Source: Pseudolysinimonas kribbensis
GTDB taxonomy: Bacteria; Actinomycetota; Actinomycetes; Actinomycetales; Microbacteriaceae
Direction: 5' to 3'
DNA: 64,000 nt
NCBI RefSeq assembly: GCF_030161895.1
Contig: NZ_BSVB01000001.1
Location: 1,674,001-1,738,000 of the forward strand
The notes below the pieces were generated by a model. That model saw only the letters and a program-made list of their open reading frames with translations, ran no database searches and was not told the origin of the DNA. The translations under genes and the position numbers were made by a program. This document shows, piece by piece, positions 3,082 through 46,234 of the stretch; within the stretch, counting starts at the first letter, position 1, and each line of letters begins with the position of its first letter.

Positions 3082-5353
3082 CTAGTGCCGACCTCGCGTC
3101 CGCCGGCGCAGCGCGGGCGCCACGGTGAGCGCCATCCCGGCGCCGAAGAGGAGCACGCCCGCCGCGATCCACGGCGCCGGCGACGTCGTGCCGGTGATGG
3201 CGAGCGTCTTCAGGTCGGTCGGGCACAGCCCGGGCGGCGCGATGTCGAACGACCAGGACGACTCACCATCCAGACCGTCCCTCGGGTCGTGCGGCGCCGC
3301 GGTCACCGTGTGGTGACCGGGTGCGACCGTGACCGTCTGCTGCGTGAGGGGGTCGTCGAACCGTCCAGGAAGTAATCCACCTGGCCGGTGAAGAACGAGA
3401 CGCCGTCCACCATGCCCACGGTGAAGGAACCGCCCGTCACCGTGCCCTGCGTGCACACCGGGTCGCTCCACGTGAGGTTCGTCGGGAAGTCGGCCAGGGT
3501 GCCGAGATCGGTGAGCGGGAACGAGCCGCAGCCGGTGACCGCACTCACGACGGTGCTCTGCTCCGCGGTCGAGTTCGTGCCCAGGTGCAGGCCCTGCGAG
3601 AGCAGGGTGTTGCCGGGCATGAGCGCGGTCATCGCGTCGATCGAGACCGGCTGCGACTGCGATCCGGGCCCGCTGGTGATCTTGCTGGTCCAGACGAGCG
3701 TCGAGTGCGTCACCGTGAAGGTGCCGGTCTGTCCCTGGGCCCAGCCGTTCATGTAGGGCTCGATCGAGATGGTCGCATAGTGGACCACGGGGCCGCCCGT
3801 GTTGAGCACCGCATCGGGGTTCACCTCGTAGACCAGTGCGGCCTGATAGCCGCTGGCTTCGGCGATCGTGTACGACGAGCCGACGACGCCCTCGAGATTG
3901 CCGCTCACCGGGTGGTAGTAGTCCACCGCCGCGGTGTTCGGACCGGCGAACAGCATGCCGGCGGGGATCGCCGTCGGGGCGATGTCACCGGCCTCCTGGG
4001 ACCAGGTGTTCCCCTGCGAGACGCACAGGGCGGTGACGTAGTCCTTGAAGTCGAGGACGCACGCCGAGTTGTCGCTGGTCAGCGAGAGCGAGGAGATCGC
4101 AGCCGTGCCCTGCACGCCCGAGCCGAGGCTGTATCCGATGGACTTCACGTGCGCGGTCGGCAGGGCGGCGAGCCAGACGTTCAGGTTCGCGCTGGCCGGA
4201 TAGCCGTCGGCGGCGGGCACGCCCGAGATCGCGGGCTTCGACCACCAGCGGTCGCCGTAGGCCCCGGCTCGCCGACCAGGATGCGGCCGTCGTCGAGCAC
4301 GAGCTGGAAGCCCGGCAGCACGCCGGCCGGCGTCGACGCGTAGTTCAGGTGCGGGCTGCCGATGCTCGCGAGCGGGATGTCGACCGCGTAGTACGCGGCG
4401 GCCTTCGACTCCCCGGAGCTGTCCTGCGTCGCGACGTTCAGCACGCCGCCCGTCACGGTGTTGCTGCCCTTGCTGCGGGTGTCGGACGTGTTCCACGTCG
4501 ACGGGAGGGTGCCATCCGGGTTCGCCATCGTTGTGATGGTGCCGAACGCGGAGCAGGGCTGCACGCAGTCGGCGTACTTGTCGGTGTCGTGCGCGGCGGT
4601 GTCGACGACCTTGCGCTCGTCGAACTGGGCCCACGGCGCGCCGGGTGCGGCCGTCTCCCAGGTGGCCGCGTCGACGTCGGTGCTCGGCGAGTGGCCGTGC
4701 ACGTAGTAGAGCGTGTACTCGGTCGTGCCGTCGTGGTTCGAGACCTGCTCGGACTGGACCTCCATGGTGTCGGTCGACGCCCCGGGGTTGGTCGTCGACC
4801 AGTCGGACCACGGACCGTAGTCGGTGTATCCGCCGGTGATCGTCTCCTCGCTCGCGTAGTACGACACCGAGACGTTCGGGCCGCCGTACACGCTCAAGGG
4901 CACCATGCCCTTCGGGTGATCCTCCGAGCCTCCCAGGAGGCTCTGCGTGATGCCGCCGGCGCCCCAGTACGCGTTGATCACGCTGTCGGGGATCTGGTGC
5001 CAGCCGTCCGACTTCACCCAGTGCCCGGAGACGGTCTGCGAGTGGTTGTTCTGGTCGCGGAAGGTCACCGTGCCGCCGTCGACGAAGTCGTACCCCTTGA
5101 CGAACTTGCGCTCCACCGTGTTGTCGGGTCGGTGCACCCGGGTGTGGAACCGGTACTCGGTGTGGAACGTCTCGGCCTTCGCCGGAACGACCTGGTCGTA
5201 CCGGTACTCCTGGTGCGACACCTCGTCGACGTGCGTCGTGCCGACCACGCACTGCGTGGGCTCGGTGGCGTGGGCCGCGGTGGCGGCCGCGGCGACCGAG
5301 ATGCCGGCGCCCAGGGCGACCGCGGCGATCCCGGCAAGGATCTTCTTCAACAT
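3082..5353 (-). CDS. Secreted surface protein with LAITG sortase signal
   Basis: The start ATG at 5353 begins a signal peptide (MLKK, hydrophobic core, cleavage near AHA at residue 29). The mature protein has a long tryptophan- and tyrosine-rich N-terminal half. Its last quarter carries a module like the cysteine-flanked repeats of the neighbouring gene (TWSDPVC ... PPGLC). The C-terminus is a complete wall-sorting signal: LAITG, a hydrophobic span, then RRRTRGRH. LAXTG is the motif known for class E sortases, and such a sortase is encoded at 42149-42984. Two single bases are missing, near 3361-3362 and in the CCCC run at 4262-4265; restoring both gives one protein of about 757 residues. The binding target is unknown. 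Confidence 0.78.
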
Positions 5354-40240: not shown

Positions 40241-41976
40241 GTGACCGATCAGGAGGTGACTCCCGACGTCCGCATCATCGCCGGACGCTACCGGCTGGGG
40301 GCGCTGCTCGGTCACGGCGGCATGGCCGACGTGTATGCCGGCACGGATGCCCGCCTCGGCCGGCAGGTCGCGGTCAAGCTGCTGAAGCCCTCCCTCGCCA
40401 ACGACCCGTCGTTCCGCACCCGGTTCCGGCAGGAGGCCCAGTCCGCGGCCCGGATGGCGCACCCGACGATCGTGCGCGTCTTCGATGCCGGCGAAGAGAC
40501 GGTGCGCGAGGCGAGCGGCATCGAGGTGCAGGTGCCGTTCATCGTCATGGAGCGCGTCGAGGGCACCCTCCTCAAGGACCTCATCGCCCGCGGCCCCGTG
40601 CCGCCGGCCGAGGCCGTCAAGCTGGTGGACGGCATCCTGACCGCGCTCGAGTACTCGCACCGCGCGGGGTCGTGCACCGCGACATCAAGCCGGGCAACGT
40701 CATGGTCACGCCGTCCGGCCAGGTCAAGGTCATGGACTTCGGCATCGCCCGGGCGATCTCCGACTCGTCGGCGACGATCGCCCAGACCAGCGCGATCCTC
40801 GGCACGGCGCAGTACTTCTCGCCCGAGCAGGCCCGCGGCGACGCGATCGATGCGCGCACCGACCTCTACTCGACCGGCGTCGTGCTGTACGAGCTGCTCA
40901 CCGGCCGGCCGCCCTTCCGCGGTGATACGGCGGTCGCCGTCGCCTACCAGCACATCAGCGAAGCGCCCGTCCCGCCTCATTCGCTCAATCCCTCGATCTC
41001 ACCGGCGCTGAACGCGGTCGTGATGCGCGCGCTCGCCAAGAACAAGGACGAGCGCTTCCAGTCGGCCTCGGATTTCAAGGCCGACCTCGACATCGCCTCG
41101 ACCGGCAAGGTGCCCGATCGCGTTCCCGCGGGTGACGACTTCAACGCCACCCTGTTCGGGGTCAGCCCGAACTCCACCGCGGCGTCGTCGGCGACCCTTC
41201 GCCGCCTAGCGGAGGACGGCAACGACTCCGCCCCGCGCACCCAGAGCCGGCCACCGGTCGCCTGGATCTGGGGCGGCATCGCGGTGATGGCGGTCATCGT
41301 CGTCGCGGCCCTCGTCTGGGTCTTCAGCCTCACCCCGCAAAACCTCGTGGGCGCCGGTGCGCAGACCGAGGTCCCGAATGTGATCGGGCTCGAGAAGGGC
41401 GCGGCCGAGAAGAAGCTCGAGAAGGCCAACCTCAAGGTGAACGAGGTCACCCAGTCCAGCGACAAGATCCAGCCGGACCACGTGATCTCGCTCACCCCGA
41501 AGGCCGGCACGAAGGTGGTGCCCGGTCAGCAGGTCGAGGTCGTCGTCTCGACGGGTCCCGCGACCGTCACGCTCCCGGGGCTGGTCTACAAGACGCAGGA
41601 TGACGCGCAGACCGCGATCAAGGCCGCCGGCCTGGTCGTCGGCGAGATCCGGTCGCAGGATTCGCCGTCCGTGGCGAAGGGAGCGGTCGTCGGCGCGCAG
41701 GTCGACGGCCTCGAGGGCATCCAGACGACGAGTGTGCAGGTGCCCGAGGGCAAGAAGGTCAACCTCATCGTCTCCACCGGCAACGTCAACGCCCCGGATC
41801 AGCGAGGGCAGTCGTTCACGGCGGCGCGGGATCTGCTGAGCGGCCCCGACTACCAGCTGCAGGTCAAGCTGGTCGCCGACGGCTCGTGCTCCGGCGGCAA
41901 CGTGACGGCGCAGTCGGCGATCGGCGAGGTGCCGCAGAAGTCGGCCGTGACGATCACCTACTGCTCGGGCGGCTGA
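40241..41976 (+). CDS. pknB: PknB-type Ser/Thr kinase with PASTA repeats
   Basis: The kinase domain (residues 10-275) has [29 protein letters not shown] and MDFGIARA. A membrane helix near residue 345 is followed by three PASTA-type repeats (VPNVIGLEKGAAEKKL, LPGLVYKTQDDAQTAI, NAPDQRGQSFTAARDLL) that in the family bind muropeptides or lipid II. It starts with GTG behind GGAGGAAC. One base is missing in the GGGG run at 40666-40669, just before the catalytic loop; restoring it gives about 578 residues. Last gene of the operon. Confidence 0.94.
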
Positions 41977-42984: not shown

Positions 42985-43048
42985 GTGCTGCATCATACGG
43001 CGCAGGCGGCAGCCGCCGGCTGGGAGAACGGTCGACTACACTGCGGGC

Positions 43049-43291
43049 ATGGCCCGACCCACGACCCGCAGCAAGAGCGAGCCTTCGGACGAGACCCGGG
43101 GTGAGAGCGCACCCAACCCGGTGTGGTTCCGCCCGGTGATGTTCGGCTTCATGTTGGTCGGGCTGGCGTGGATCATCGTCTTCTACCTCAGCAACCAGCA
43201 GTGGCCGATTCCGCAGCTGGCCAACTGGAACATCCTGGTGGGCTTCGGGATCATGTTCATCGGCTTCCTGATGACGACCCGCTGGCGCTGA
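43049..43291 (+). CDS. crgA: Cell division protein CrgA
   Basis: The 80-residue protein has two membrane helices (about 30-50 and 58-76) and the family pattern NPVWFRPVMFGFMLVGLAWIIVFYLS, with WNILVGFGIMFIGFLMTTRWR at the end. CrgA is an actinobacterial divisome protein that interacts with FtsZ, PbpA and FtsI. It converges with the rhomboid gene and diverges from the sortase. Confidence 0.95.
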   Translation: MARPTTRSKSEPSDETRGESAPNPVWFRPVMFGFMLVGLAWIIVFYLSNQQWPIPQLANWNILVGFGIMFIGFLMTTRWR

Positions 43292-43307
43292 ATCACACCG
43301 CTGTCAT

Positions 43308-43326
43308 TCGTCCACACTGTGGACGA
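43308..43326. terminator. Hairpin between converging crgA and rhomboid genes
   Basis: TCGTCCAC (43308-43315) pairs perfectly with GTGGACGA (43319-43326) over a 3-nt loop, 16 bp after the crgA stop. It is a probable bidirectional terminator without a U-tract. Confidence 0.5.
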
Positions 43327-43344
43327 GCCTGTGGATAGGTCGCT

Positions 43345-44262
43345 CTAGAAGTACTGCGCTCGTTCGGTGACCACGCACGCGACGGTGATCAGCACGAGCA
43401 GGATCGCGATGCCCGCGACGATCGCGACCTGCACCGAGCGCGGCCGATTGCGCCTCGTGCGCAGGAACACGTAGCCGATCGCGAGCCCGGTCAGCAGGCC
43501 GCCGAGGTGGGCCTCCCATGCGATGCCCGGCACGAAGAAGCTGATCGCCAGGTTCGCGACGACGACGATGAGCAGTTGCATCGACTGCACGCCCATCGCC
43601 GTGCGCAGCGCGATGATCGCGCCCAGCAGGCCGAAGATCGCGCCCGAGGCGCCGAGCGCGGAGGACGGCGAGAGCAGAGTGCCGAGCCACTGCGCCGACG
43701 CGTGACCCGAGACGACCCACAGCTGGTAGACGAGGACGACACCGACGCTCCCGCCGAGAGCCGTCACGAGGTACAGCGCGAGGTAGCGCAACCGGCCGAG
43801 GAACCGCTCGAGCGCCGGCCCGAAGATGAACAGGGCGTAGAGGTTGAAGAGGATGTGCAGGAAGGACTGCGGGGAGTGCAGGAAGGCGGAGGTGATCATC
43901 CGCCACGGCTCGCTCGCCACGAGCCGCGGGTCGAGCACGCCGGCGTTGGTCACGAGCCCGCCGCTGACCAGCTGACCGATGTAGACGACGAGGCAGAGGG
44001 CCATCATCACGTAGGTGACGACCGGCACGCCCTGCGGCAGCAGCCGGCGCGCGTAGCCGCCGGGGCCTCCCGCGCGCGTCGCCGCGACGGATGCCCGGCC
44101 CTCACGCATGCACTCGGGGCAGAGCACGCCGACCGGCGCCGGCGTCTGACAGTCCGGGCAGATCGTGCGGCCGCAGCGCTGGCAGTGGATGAAGCTCTGC
44201 CGGTCGCGATGCCGGTAGCAGGTCGCCGACTGGGTCTCCTCGAGCGGCGCGGGGGTGCTCAC
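43345..44262 (-). CDS. Rhomboid intramembrane serine protease with zinc-ribbon N-terminus
   Basis: Residues 10-50 form a cytoplasmic cysteine cluster (CYRHRDRQSFIHCQRCGRTICPDC ... CPEC, in two pieces). Six or seven membrane helices follow, with the full rhomboid catalytic set: HILFN (oxyanion Asn), GASGAIFGLLGA (nucleophile Ser) and His in AWEAHLGGLLTG. It should cut membrane proteins within the bilayer. The GTG start at 44262 overlaps the stop of the paralogous gene upstream (GTGA). Confidence 0.92.
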   Translation of the reverse strand: MSTPAPLEETQSATCYRHRDRQSFIHCQRCGRTICPDCQTPAPVGVLCPECMREGRASVAATRAGGPGGYARRLLPQGVPVVTYVMMALCLVVYIGQLVSGGLVTNAGVLDPRLVASEPWRMITSAFLHSPQSFLHILFNLYALFIFGPALERFLGRLRYLALYLVTALGGSVGVVLVYQLWVVSGHASAQWLGTLLSPSSALGASGAIFGLLGAIIALRTAMGVQSMQLLIVVVANLAISFFVPGIAWEAHLGGLLTGLAIGYVFLRTRRNRPRSVQVAIVAGIAILLVLITVACVVTERAQYF

Positions 44263-45182
44263 AGCAGCCCTCGCACGATCGCGATGACGACGAGCACGGC
44301 GAGCCCGCCCGCGATGAGGCCGTAGGGCACGCGCCGGCTGCGGTGCTCCTCGAAGCGGCGCTCGATGAAGGCGGCACCGGTACCCCCGAGGATGCCGCCG
44401 ACGATCGCCGGCAGCAGGGCGGGGCTGAGGATGAGCGTGATGAGCACGTAGACGCCGATCATCACGAGCAGCTGGGTGCGCAGCCCCGGTGAGGACCACA
44501 CCTGGATCAGCGTCGCGCCGAACAGGCCGTAGATGATGCCGTACAGGCCGTATCCCGGGTAGCCCACGATGACCGCGGCGGCCGCCCCTGCGATCCCGGC
44601 GGCGAGCAGCACGACGACGAAACGGCGTCGCCCGAGCTGTCGTTCGGCGAGCGGGGCCGTGAGCAGGAACACGAGCACGCTCAGCACGAAGCTGAGCACC
44701 CCCGCGAGACTCGCCCCCGGCGCGCTCGCGATCGACGCCGTGACGAAGCGCCACACCTGCCAGCCGAGGCCGGGGAGGGCGACGAGCCACAGGCTCAGCA
44801 CCGGGGTGAAGAGCCCGACCAGCCACACCGCCGTCGCGATCGCCGCCGTCGCCCAGCTGATGACCGGGCTCTCGTCGCCGGGGCGCAGCATCCCGAGCGC
44901 GACGCGCTGCCAGGCCGGACGGTCGTCCAGAACGGCGCCGGAGCGGACGCGGACCCGCTTGCGCTTGACCGGCTTGGGTGCGGGCCGCGGACCGGAGGCC
45001 GGGGTCCACTGCACCGAGCCGCCGAGCTCTTCGATGCACGTCGGGCACCGCACGCCCTGCGGCGTGAGGATCTGGCATTCGGGGCAGATCGTGCGGCCGC
45101 ACCGCTCGCACAGCGTCCAGCTGGTGCGGTCGGGATGGCGGTAGCAGACCGAGGCATCCACCTCGGGGCCGACCCCGCTCAT
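44259..45182 (-). CDS. Rhomboid-like protein without the catalytic serine
   Basis: The 307-residue protein has the same N-terminal layout as its neighbour (CYRHPDRTSWTLCERCGRTICPEC, then CPTC) and a similar set of membrane helices, but the serine motif is replaced by GYGLYGIIYGLFGA, with Tyr in the Ser position of GxSG. The His helix is also not recognisable (TGAAFIERRFEEH). It is therefore probably a pseudoprotease translated together with the active rhomboid. Starts with ATG at 45182, 10 bp after ppiA. Confidence 0.82.
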   Translation of the reverse strand: MSGVGPEVDASVCYRHPDRTSWTLCERCGRTICPECQILTPQGVRCPTCIEELGGSVQWTPASGPRPAPKPVKRKRVRVRSGAVLDDRPAWQRVALGMLRPGDESPVISWATAAIATAVWLVGLFTPVLSLWLVALPGLGWQVWRFVTASIASAPGASLAGVLSFVLSVLVFLLTAPLAERQLGRRRFVVVLLAAGIAGAAAAVIVGYPGYGLYGIIYGLFGATLIQVWSSPGLRTQLLVMIGVYVLITLILSPALLPAIVGGILGGTGAAFIERRFEEHRSRRVPYGLIAGGLAVLVVIAIVRGLL

Positions 45183-45192
45183 GGGGTGGCCG

Positions 45193-45731
45193 CTAGACCG
45201 GCGTGACGTCGACGCTCTGGATGACGACGTCGTCCAGCGGCTTGTCGCGCCCGTCGGTCGACACGCCCTCGATCTCGTCGACGACCTTCTTCGACGCGTC
45301 GTCGGCGACCTCGCCGAAGATCGTGTGCTTGCCCTGCAGCCACTGGGTGGGCGCGGTGGTGATGAAGAACTGCGACCCGTTGGTGCCGCGCCCCATCTGA
45401 ATGCCGGCGTTCGCCATGGCGAGCACGTAGGGCTCGTTGAAGTTCAGCTCGGGGTGGATCTCGTCATCGAACTGGTACCCCGGACCGCCGATGCCCTTGC
45501 CGAGCGGGTCGCCGCCCTGGAGCATGAAGTCGCGGATGATCCGATGGAAGATCACGCCGTCGTAGAGGGCTTGCTCGTCGGCTGACCCGTCTCGGGGTCG
45601 GTCCACTCCTTGGCCCCGGTGGCGAGGCCGACGAAGTTGCCGACCGTCTTCGGTGCGTGGTTGCCGTAGAGGTTGAGCTTGATGTCGCCGTGGTTGGTGT
45701 GCAGAGTCGCGACCGCGGTGGGGGCTGGCAT
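45193..45731 (-). CDS. ppiA: Cyclophilin-type peptidyl-prolyl isomerase
   Basis: The protein is about 179 residues. The cyclophilin active-site block [26 protein letters not shown] and the tryptophan of [16 protein letters not shown] are present. No signal peptide is visible, so this is the cytoplasmic PpiA that sits near gyrA in actinobacteria. One base is missing in the GGG run at 45567-45569; restoring it joins ...GQPTSKP to LYDGVIFH. Confidence 0.94.
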
Positions 45732-45865
45732 GGTGATGATTGTGTCATGCGGGCTCCGACGATGCTCGGAGCGGATGTCCAGGCGCGGTGGAGCGTGGCC
45801 GTCGGCCCCCATGCCAGGATGGGTGCACCGGCCGCCGCGGCGGCATCCCACGGACGGAGGTCACC

Positions 45866-46234
45866 ATGGCTCTCTCCCGCAAGCGTCAGAAGGAGCTGAA
45901 GCGTCTCCGGCGCTCGGCCGAAGACCTGTGGCAGGAGCAGCGCGAGGCGATCGACCACGCCAGCACCGTGCTGCGGGAGGCCCGTCGGCAGGCGGGCAAC
46001 TACGCCCGCGAAGAGGTCGGGCCGCGCGTGCGTTCCGCCTACGACGACCGCATCCGTCCCGCGGTCGCCTCCGCGCGTCACGGCATCAGCCATGACATGC
46101 TGCCGGCCGTCTCCGGCGCCGTGGGCTCGGCCCTGGCCGTGCTCGAGGCGACCCGCGATCCCCGCGTGCGCGACGTCGTGCGCAAGGCAGCCTCGGTCAC
46201 GGACCGCATCGGAAAGGTGACCCCCTCCCCGTGA
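45866..46234 (+). CDS. Hypothetical helical protein
   Basis: The 122-residue, very basic and helical protein (SRKRQKELKRLRRSAEDLW...) has no membrane segment. An EREA/ARRQAGNYAREEVGPRV stretch looks amphipathic. The start ATG is preceded by GGAGG. Its stop overlaps the GTG of the next tiny gene (GTGA). No family was recognised; small pairs like this occur near ppiA in related bacteria. Confidence 0.7.
   Translation: MALSRKRQKELKRLRRSAEDLWQEQREAIDHASTVLREARRQAGNYAREEVGPRVRSAYDDRIRPAVASARHGISHDMLPAVSGAVGSALAVLEATRDPRVRDVVRKAASVTDRIGKVTPSP

Follow-up and report, generated by a model that had tools for sequence, protein, structure and literature searches.

A putative zinc-headed rhomboid pseudoprotease of Microbacteriaceae, encoded with or without an active-type partner

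Rhomboid pseudoproteases, represented by the iRhoms and derlins, have been studied almost wholly in eukaryotes. In the iRhoms, the loop that follows TM1 bears the iRhom homology domain. Some inactive homologues of rhomboids in bacteria are mentioned in older surveys. In the derlins, which are rhomboid-fold pseudoproteases, the L1 WR and TM6 GxxxG motifs matter for function (PMC8641752, accessible part), and the eukaryotic iRhoms, pseudoproteases on the rhomboid fold (structures 8snl, 9o58, 9xy4 and 9q7y), act on ADAM17 and on client trafficking (PMC3149277, accessible part). YqgP of Bacillus subtilis is an active protease, the catalytically dead form of which serves as an FtsH adaptor for MgtE; its N-terminal domain is required, and the adaptor role needs an unobstructed active site (PMC7231995, accessible part). 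The actinobacterial 'family A' rhomboids (Streptomyces SCO3855 type) have a peptidyl-prolyl isomerase neighbour, in many cases a zinc finger, seven TM helices and a Ser-His spacing of about 46 residues; every rhomboid tabulated in the accessible part of that paper (PMC4467639) has an active site, and inactive copies are not described there. A search of titles and abstracts, with subscription journals mostly outside it, found no literature on bacterial zinc-headed pseudo-rhomboids, and the word 'rhomboid' is absent from the accessible part of PMC2605481.

The window, a 64,000-nucleotide stretch of the Pseudolysinimonas kribbensis genome, carries two overlapping zinc-headed rhomboid genes, P0001 and P0002, in the slot between a ppiA-type gene and crgA, with the following features:

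43049..43291, plus strand: crgA, on the other flank of the rhomboid slot (PF06781 E 1.1e-28 on 43007-43291; synteny), its start set at an ATG by reading
43345..44262, minus strand: P0002, active-type zinc-headed rhomboid, 305 aa, GTG start (PF01694, phmmer to GlpG, AlphaFold)
43507..43509, minus strand: P0002 codon of catalytic His252 (sequence and alignment)
43642..43653, minus strand: P0002 GASG with catalytic Ser206 (sequence and alignment)
43843..43857, minus strand: P0002 HILFN, its HxxxN motif (sequence and alignment)
44110..44220, minus strand: P0002 head, residues 15-51 (ligand pattern as in P0001)
44259..44262, minus strand: GTGA overlap of the P0001 TGA stop with the P0002 GTG start (sequence)
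44259..45182, minus strand: P0001, predicted type A zinc-headed rhomboid pseudoprotease, 307 aa, ATG start (ORF, PF01694, AlphaFold, GlpG fold)
44403..44405, minus strand: P0001 I260 codon, where the catalytic TM6 His (GlpG H254) belongs (alignment)
44538..44549, minus strand: P0001 GLYG (residues 212-215) in place of GxSG, with Tyr214 for the catalytic Ser (alignment)
44691..44693, minus strand: P0001 S164 codon, where the HxxxN His (GlpG H150) belongs (alignment with P0002)
45036..45146, minus strand: P0001 N-terminal head, residues 13-49, with eight C/H ligand positions (pattern)
45193..45851, minus strand: ppiA-type cyclophilin just upstream of P0001, in two frames (PF00160 E 7.1e-33 on 45193-45606; synteny)

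From the alignment of the two proteins (27% over 324 columns), it is clear that H136/N140, S206 and H252 of P0002 correspond to S164/S168, Y214 and I260 of P0001, HxxxN thereby being converted into SxxxS. The only His residues in the whole of P0001 are H16 in the head and H280 after TM6, and neither the alignment nor a listing of every His revealed an intact Ser-His dyad. The two genes meet at CTGTGAGC with a 4-base overlap, and no promoter-like site was seen in the window at 43200-46000, which is weak evidence in a GC-rich actinobacterium. The first-pass annotation had described a GTGA-coupled pair sharing a Cys-rich, zinc-ribbon-like head and a rhomboid core, the downstream member keeping HxxxN, GASG and the catalytic His and the upstream one showing GYGLYG in place of GxSG and no clear His; all of this held, including the coordinates, strand and overlap. 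P0002 keeps the GxSG Ser, the TM6 His and HxxxN and by its residues is an active-type rhomboid, and it also shows the family A hallmarks of zinc-finger head, seven TM helices and a Ser206-His252 spacing of 46 residues (hallmarks as given in the accessible part of PMC4467639). The isomerase gene lies one gene away from P0002, with P0001 between them, and is adjacent to the rhomboid in relatives without a pseudo copy. P0002 fits family A; P0001 is derived and lacks the dyad.

Both heads follow a CxxH-CxxC-CxxC-CxxC pattern with eight ligands, from which we infer zinc binding; the Pfam zf-B_box match to the head stays below its cut-off (15.6 vs 24.1 bits), and the similarity of the head to Rab-effector zinc fingers in the fold list (Z 5.0) is too weak for use. 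Both proteins match the Pfam Rhomboid family PF01694 above its cut-off, P0001 with E 4.5e-8 (33.8 bits) and P0002 with E 7.4e-27 (94.7 bits), and phmmer aligned P0002 with GlpG at E 2.6e-10. Structure prediction, proposed earlier as a check on each protein, gave a confident rhomboid core of 6+1 helices for P0001 (pLDDT 88.0, pTM 0.74) and a pLDDT of 91.6 with a pTM of 0.80 for P0002. The P0001 model matches GlpG with Z 18.7 and an rmsd of 2.4 over 162 residues. Together with W144 and R145 at the aligned L1 WR position, the TM2 Glu, the TM6 GxxxG and the PF01694 match, this places P0001 in the rhomboid superfamily by fold. Its Y214 and I260 and a core devoid of His set it apart from the active rhomboid proteases (MEROPS S54), and with 19 bits it lies far below the 250-bit cut-off of the GlpG equivalog TIGR04239. 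P0001 is thus almost certainly a rhomboid pseudoprotease, as judged from its residues.

P0001 shares WR and GxxxG with the derlins but differs from them in having an N-terminal zinc head and in belonging to a family where the WR Arg is not fixed; it has no Pfam DER1 match at E<=1, and P0002 scores 17 bits against a cut-off of 26.6. The iRhom comparison drawn in the first-pass annotation stands for the fold and the logic, P0001 matching the iRhom1/2 structures (VIA Z 15.2-18.4) about as closely as it does GlpG, but fails for the iRhom-specific domain, since the L1 loop is short: the stretch between TM1 and TM2 covers residues 126-158 and contains no iRhom homology domain.

Among 299 Microbacteriaceae genomes, P0001-type proteins (type A, E below 1e-40) were found in 24 genomes from 8 of 85 genera; the nearest match beyond them has an E of 7.7e-30 and belongs to a different lineage. 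Type A is carried by 24 of the 25 sampled genomes of these eight genera, G106 alone being without it. None was found outside the Microbacteriaceae in an order sample of 198 genomes (at least 14 from the Microbacteriaceae itself) searched for type A, and the best match there from outside the family (E 1.8e-13) covers the head only.

The usual gene order in the Microbacteriaceae is ppiA - rhomboid - crgA - sortase - pknB - pknA (Pfam PF00160, PF06781, PF04203, PF00069/PF03793), in agreement with the isomerase neighbour described for actinomycete family A rhomboids (PMC4467639). Seven of the 24 carriers have ppiA - dead - live - crgA (g1, three g66, G031 and two g41), where the contig of G112 stops inside the active copy, before crgA. 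In eleven the slot reads ppiA - dead - crgA and is devoid of a live copy (five g58, five g48 and G035, the live copy of which sits at another place). In the remaining six, all of g16, the dead copy lies away from the slot, which holds a headless live copy in both loci examined (L124 and L127); dead and live copies are 67-69 kb apart in three same-contig genomes and on separate contigs in the other three. The coupled dead and active pair is therefore kept in seven genomes of four genera but is a minority arrangement. A 4-base overlap (GTGA or ATGA) occurs in six of the seven type A pairs, and in one of the four type B pairs measured.

We have also searched for further rhomboids in the carriers that lack a live copy in the slot. 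With PF01694 and P0002 as queries, no other rhomboid was found in any of the five g58 genomes or in three of the five g48 genomes, and the two remaining g48 genomes hold a distant, deep-branching rhomboid with an intact dyad. Since the dead copy is found without an active one in these genera, it is not dependent on an active copy.

Motifs were counted on 155 distinct rhomboid rows, comprising 24 type A, 11 other dead copies and 120 remaining rows (8 of them from other families); the family-wide counts are of the rows fetched, the alignment leaving aside G011 and G060, a second G105 match and the matches in very long frames, and three of 123 ORFs were left out of the alignment by length (the third match of the window genome and two contig-cut copies held whole elsewhere). 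In type A, both the TM6 His and the HxxxN His are missing throughout (0/24 each), and the Ser is kept in 8 of 24. The earlier term 'serine-less' thus fits P0001 itself but not its family, and the survey of relatives that the first-pass annotation called for confirmed the pair in 7 of 24 carriers without finding Ser loss to be common to type A. Retained in all 24 are the L1 Trp, the TM2 Glu, the first Gly of GxSG and all eight presumed zinc-ligand positions; the two TM6 GxxxG glycines are present in 22 and 24, and the Arg of WR in 21, its three losses all falling in g66, which is the window's closest genus. The catalytic positions hold freely varying residues, and no His or Cys outside the head is conserved across type A. 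Among the 120 remaining rows, the Ser is present in 120, the TM6 His in 119 and the zinc positions in 97.

The 11 other dead zinc-headed rhomboids show much the same picture, with no TM6 His, no HxxxN His, Ser in two (plus one, L068, where the assignment is ambiguous by one residue) and zinc positions in all 11, one ligand being Asp in six; the Arg of WR is lost in nine. From the residue counts, loss of the His pair, rather than of the Ser, is what marks type A and the other dead copies. The head is kept in 35 of 35 pseudo rows vs 97 of the 120 others (Fisher p 0.0023, on rows that share ancestry; among the 120, a contig end truncates one, and eight come from other families). The 11 other dead copies appear to be of separate origin. 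In g42, g39 and g52 such copies precede a live one, and in two genomes, G169 (L129 5729-8150) and G038 (L134 6836-9133), the arrangement is a tandem triplet of two dead headed copies and one live headless copy. The only rhomboid found in G052, and likewise in G004, is dead and of an origin other than type A, and that of G052 (L030) groups with the live copies of its own genus (96/93). A single origin of all pseudo-rhomboids is disfavoured by the tree comparison, though not strongly (AU p 0.034).

The active copy is headless where the pseudo copy has a head in G051, G169, G038 and g16. Head loss in the active copy in the presence of a headed pseudo copy can be taken as a lead only: the closest relatives of the active g16 copies (G067 and g68) are headless yet have no pseudo copy beside them, and several small genomes lack the head as well. 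At L046 496-1986, a headed dead rhomboid is followed directly by a headless live one, as if the head were given in trans.

Constraint on the type A gene was examined by region. In the seven paired genomes, the mean pairwise identity of the head is 0.89 in the dead vs 0.78 in the live copies, that of TM2 is 0.41 vs 0.79, and that of L1 is 0.37 vs 0.61; of the 34 columns that are invariant in alignment A1, 24 fall in the head. The dN/dS of type A is 0.12-0.46 (12 pairs, some sharing a row), with dN of 0.01-0.15 in the head and 0.06-0.48 in the core; the active partners have 0.17-0.49 (4 pairs), and type A does not fall below them. All are rough values from Nei-Gojobori counts on GC-rich genes. 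These estimates show that the type A gene is under purifying selection, strongest in the head, and that constraint has shifted from the membrane active site to the head, which would point to the docking place of a partner. Fast decay of type A was considered and is countered by the same dN/dS values.

In the window, the cyclophilin (45193-45851, minus strand) and a pknB-type kinase (40241-41976, plus strand) are each spread over two frames, and the relative L101 has the cyclophilin in a single frame; the splits are probably indel errors of the single-contig assembly (86% complete). A frameshift artefact was also considered for P0001 and rejected: it aligns at full length with 23 orthologues, all open (frames are thus open in all 24 type A genes), so its Ser and His changes do not come from nearby indels.

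In the rhomboid tree (87 of 120 aligned rows, catalytic columns left out, bootstrap not fully settled; L023, close to L019, is in no tree), type A forms one clade of 23 rows with a support of 100/100. The active partners in the paired genomes form another, of nine rows (100/100), together with the G035 copy that has moved and the only copy of G106. For the locus genes, the seven slot genera are one clade (98/96) with g16 outside, in a tree holding one long row, L135, that serves as root. The g16 dead copies nest within type A, the alternative having an AU p of 0.010, an optimistic value since the test was made after the placement was seen. Because the dead gene of g16 is nested in type A and the locus genes of this genus fall outside the clade of carriers, horizontal transfer is the simplest reading and a likely one, although old paralogy with losses may be the alternative.

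Genes for DnaK, GrpE, DnaJ, a MerR-type regulator and a Clp-type AAA protein are close to the g16 dead copy, and an MFS-type gene stands among or next to them, as compared over six loci (L110, L111, L116, L117, L120 and L122; Pfam on L110 and L111). This chaperone neighbourhood would suit client handling, as the context of one genus. On the other side of type A in the g16 loci, the genes are carotenoid-related in look, by eye only.

As to origin, P0001 would have arisen early in the history of a Microbacteriaceae clade, when the zinc-headed family A rhomboid of the ppiA-rhomboid-crgA locus was duplicated. We propose that it acts without cutting, as a handler of membrane clients: the rhomboid fold would recognise the transmembrane helix of a client, and the head, taken as cytosolic and zinc-bound, would dock a partner, for example FtsH or another processive protease, or else a chaperone. 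Such a hand-over would have its nearest experimental precedent in that of MgtE to FtsH by catalytically dead YqgP, which also passes a membrane protein to a processive protease via a cytosolic metal-binding N-terminal domain (PMC7231995, accessible part); the differences are that YqgP is an active protease with another N-terminal domain, whereas evolution has inactivated P0001, the adaptor role of which is putative. In coupled pairs, dead and live proteins would probably be produced at a constant ratio; they may have clients in common or form hetero-oligomers.

This autonomous adaptor role, in which membrane clients are handled non-proteolytically through docking at the zinc head, is the reading we tentatively prefer, at slightly less than even odds. 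Catalytic loss combined with retained structural residues and eight zinc positions in the 24 type A proteins speaks for it, as do its standing as the only rhomboid found in eight type A genomes and its likely transfer in g16; the zinc head common in active copies too, a WR Arg that matters in derlins but is not fixed in type A, and a dN/dS not below that of the active partners speak against it, and Tyr214 may fill the active site, contrary to what a YqgP-like adaptor needs. The tight coupling of six of the seven pairs is a further point against autonomy there and makes a joint role with the live copy likely where the genes are coupled, as in the window. The stronger version, a dedicated subunit or regulator in which P0001 and P0002 hetero-oligomerise and the dead member presents substrate or restrains cleavage, draws on the common ancestry and head of the two proteins, on the overlap frequencies given above, and on the separate pseudo lineages (g42, g52) that also stand directly upstream of an active copy. 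Since most of the 24 carriers (all but seven) lack the pair, eight type A genomes yielded no active rhomboid and g16 has type A at another locus, we regard this version as somewhat unlikely. The regulatory or substrate-presenting role suggested by the first-pass annotation thus suits the seven coupled genomes but is not general: regulation of an adjacent active rhomboid is unlikely as the sole family role, because type A is also found without a live copy.

Binding of PpiA, CrgA, sortase and PknB by head or core, as an envelope-cluster scaffold for division or wall synthesis, would explain why the ppiA-rhomboid-crgA-sortase-pknB order surrounds type A in the 18 carriers outside g16, to contig limits (G112 ends inside the active copy and G263 after crgA). 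We consider it improbable, since genomes that lack a pseudo copy show the same order around their ordinary active rhomboids, to locus limits, and g16 type A lies away from the ppiA-crgA locus. The dead core evolves faster than the active core and its catalytic positions vary freely, as a duplication relic drifting to loss and retained only through its upstream operon position would do; yet the dN/dS and head dN values, the open frames in all 24, the retention in 24 of 25 genomes of eight genera (eight without an active copy found) and the apparent transfer and retention in g16 make this very unlikely. More remote still is an unusual intramembrane hydrolase working without His, through Ser (eight members keep one) or another nucleophile: GxSG persists in several members, such as L013, L015, L017, L022 and L026, but the Ser is missing in 16 of 24 including P0001, and outside the head neither His nor Cys is conserved.

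Coming back to the adaptor role that we prefer, a wider version of it, speculative and on balance doubtful, would make these proteins a bacterial derlin-like branch, in which proteolysis was lost repeatedly, the head was kept, the protease was replaced in some genera and clients are passed to a head-bound partner, the fold being selected for handling and not for cutting. Which of these two was the older job of the rhomboid fold is a question that bears on type A, where active and dead copies coexist in some genomes and the dead copy is the sole rhomboid found in close relatives. Such pseudo-only genomes would offer a direct view of rhomboid function in the absence of cutting.

Several other rhomboid-like sequences were noted in the survey. 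The window genome has a third rhomboid-like match (C1:362511; L137 about 4539-4740, minus strand), partial and divergent, in which no catalytic motif was seen and around which the frames contain stops. In several genomes, weak PF01694 matches inside open frames of 840-1334 aa make up a candidate rhomboid-like group. The L035 record, titled 'Acidobacteria bacterium isolate G2_35', has a rhomboid pair identical to that of G065 (L007), a genome from the family of the window, and its title looks wrong.
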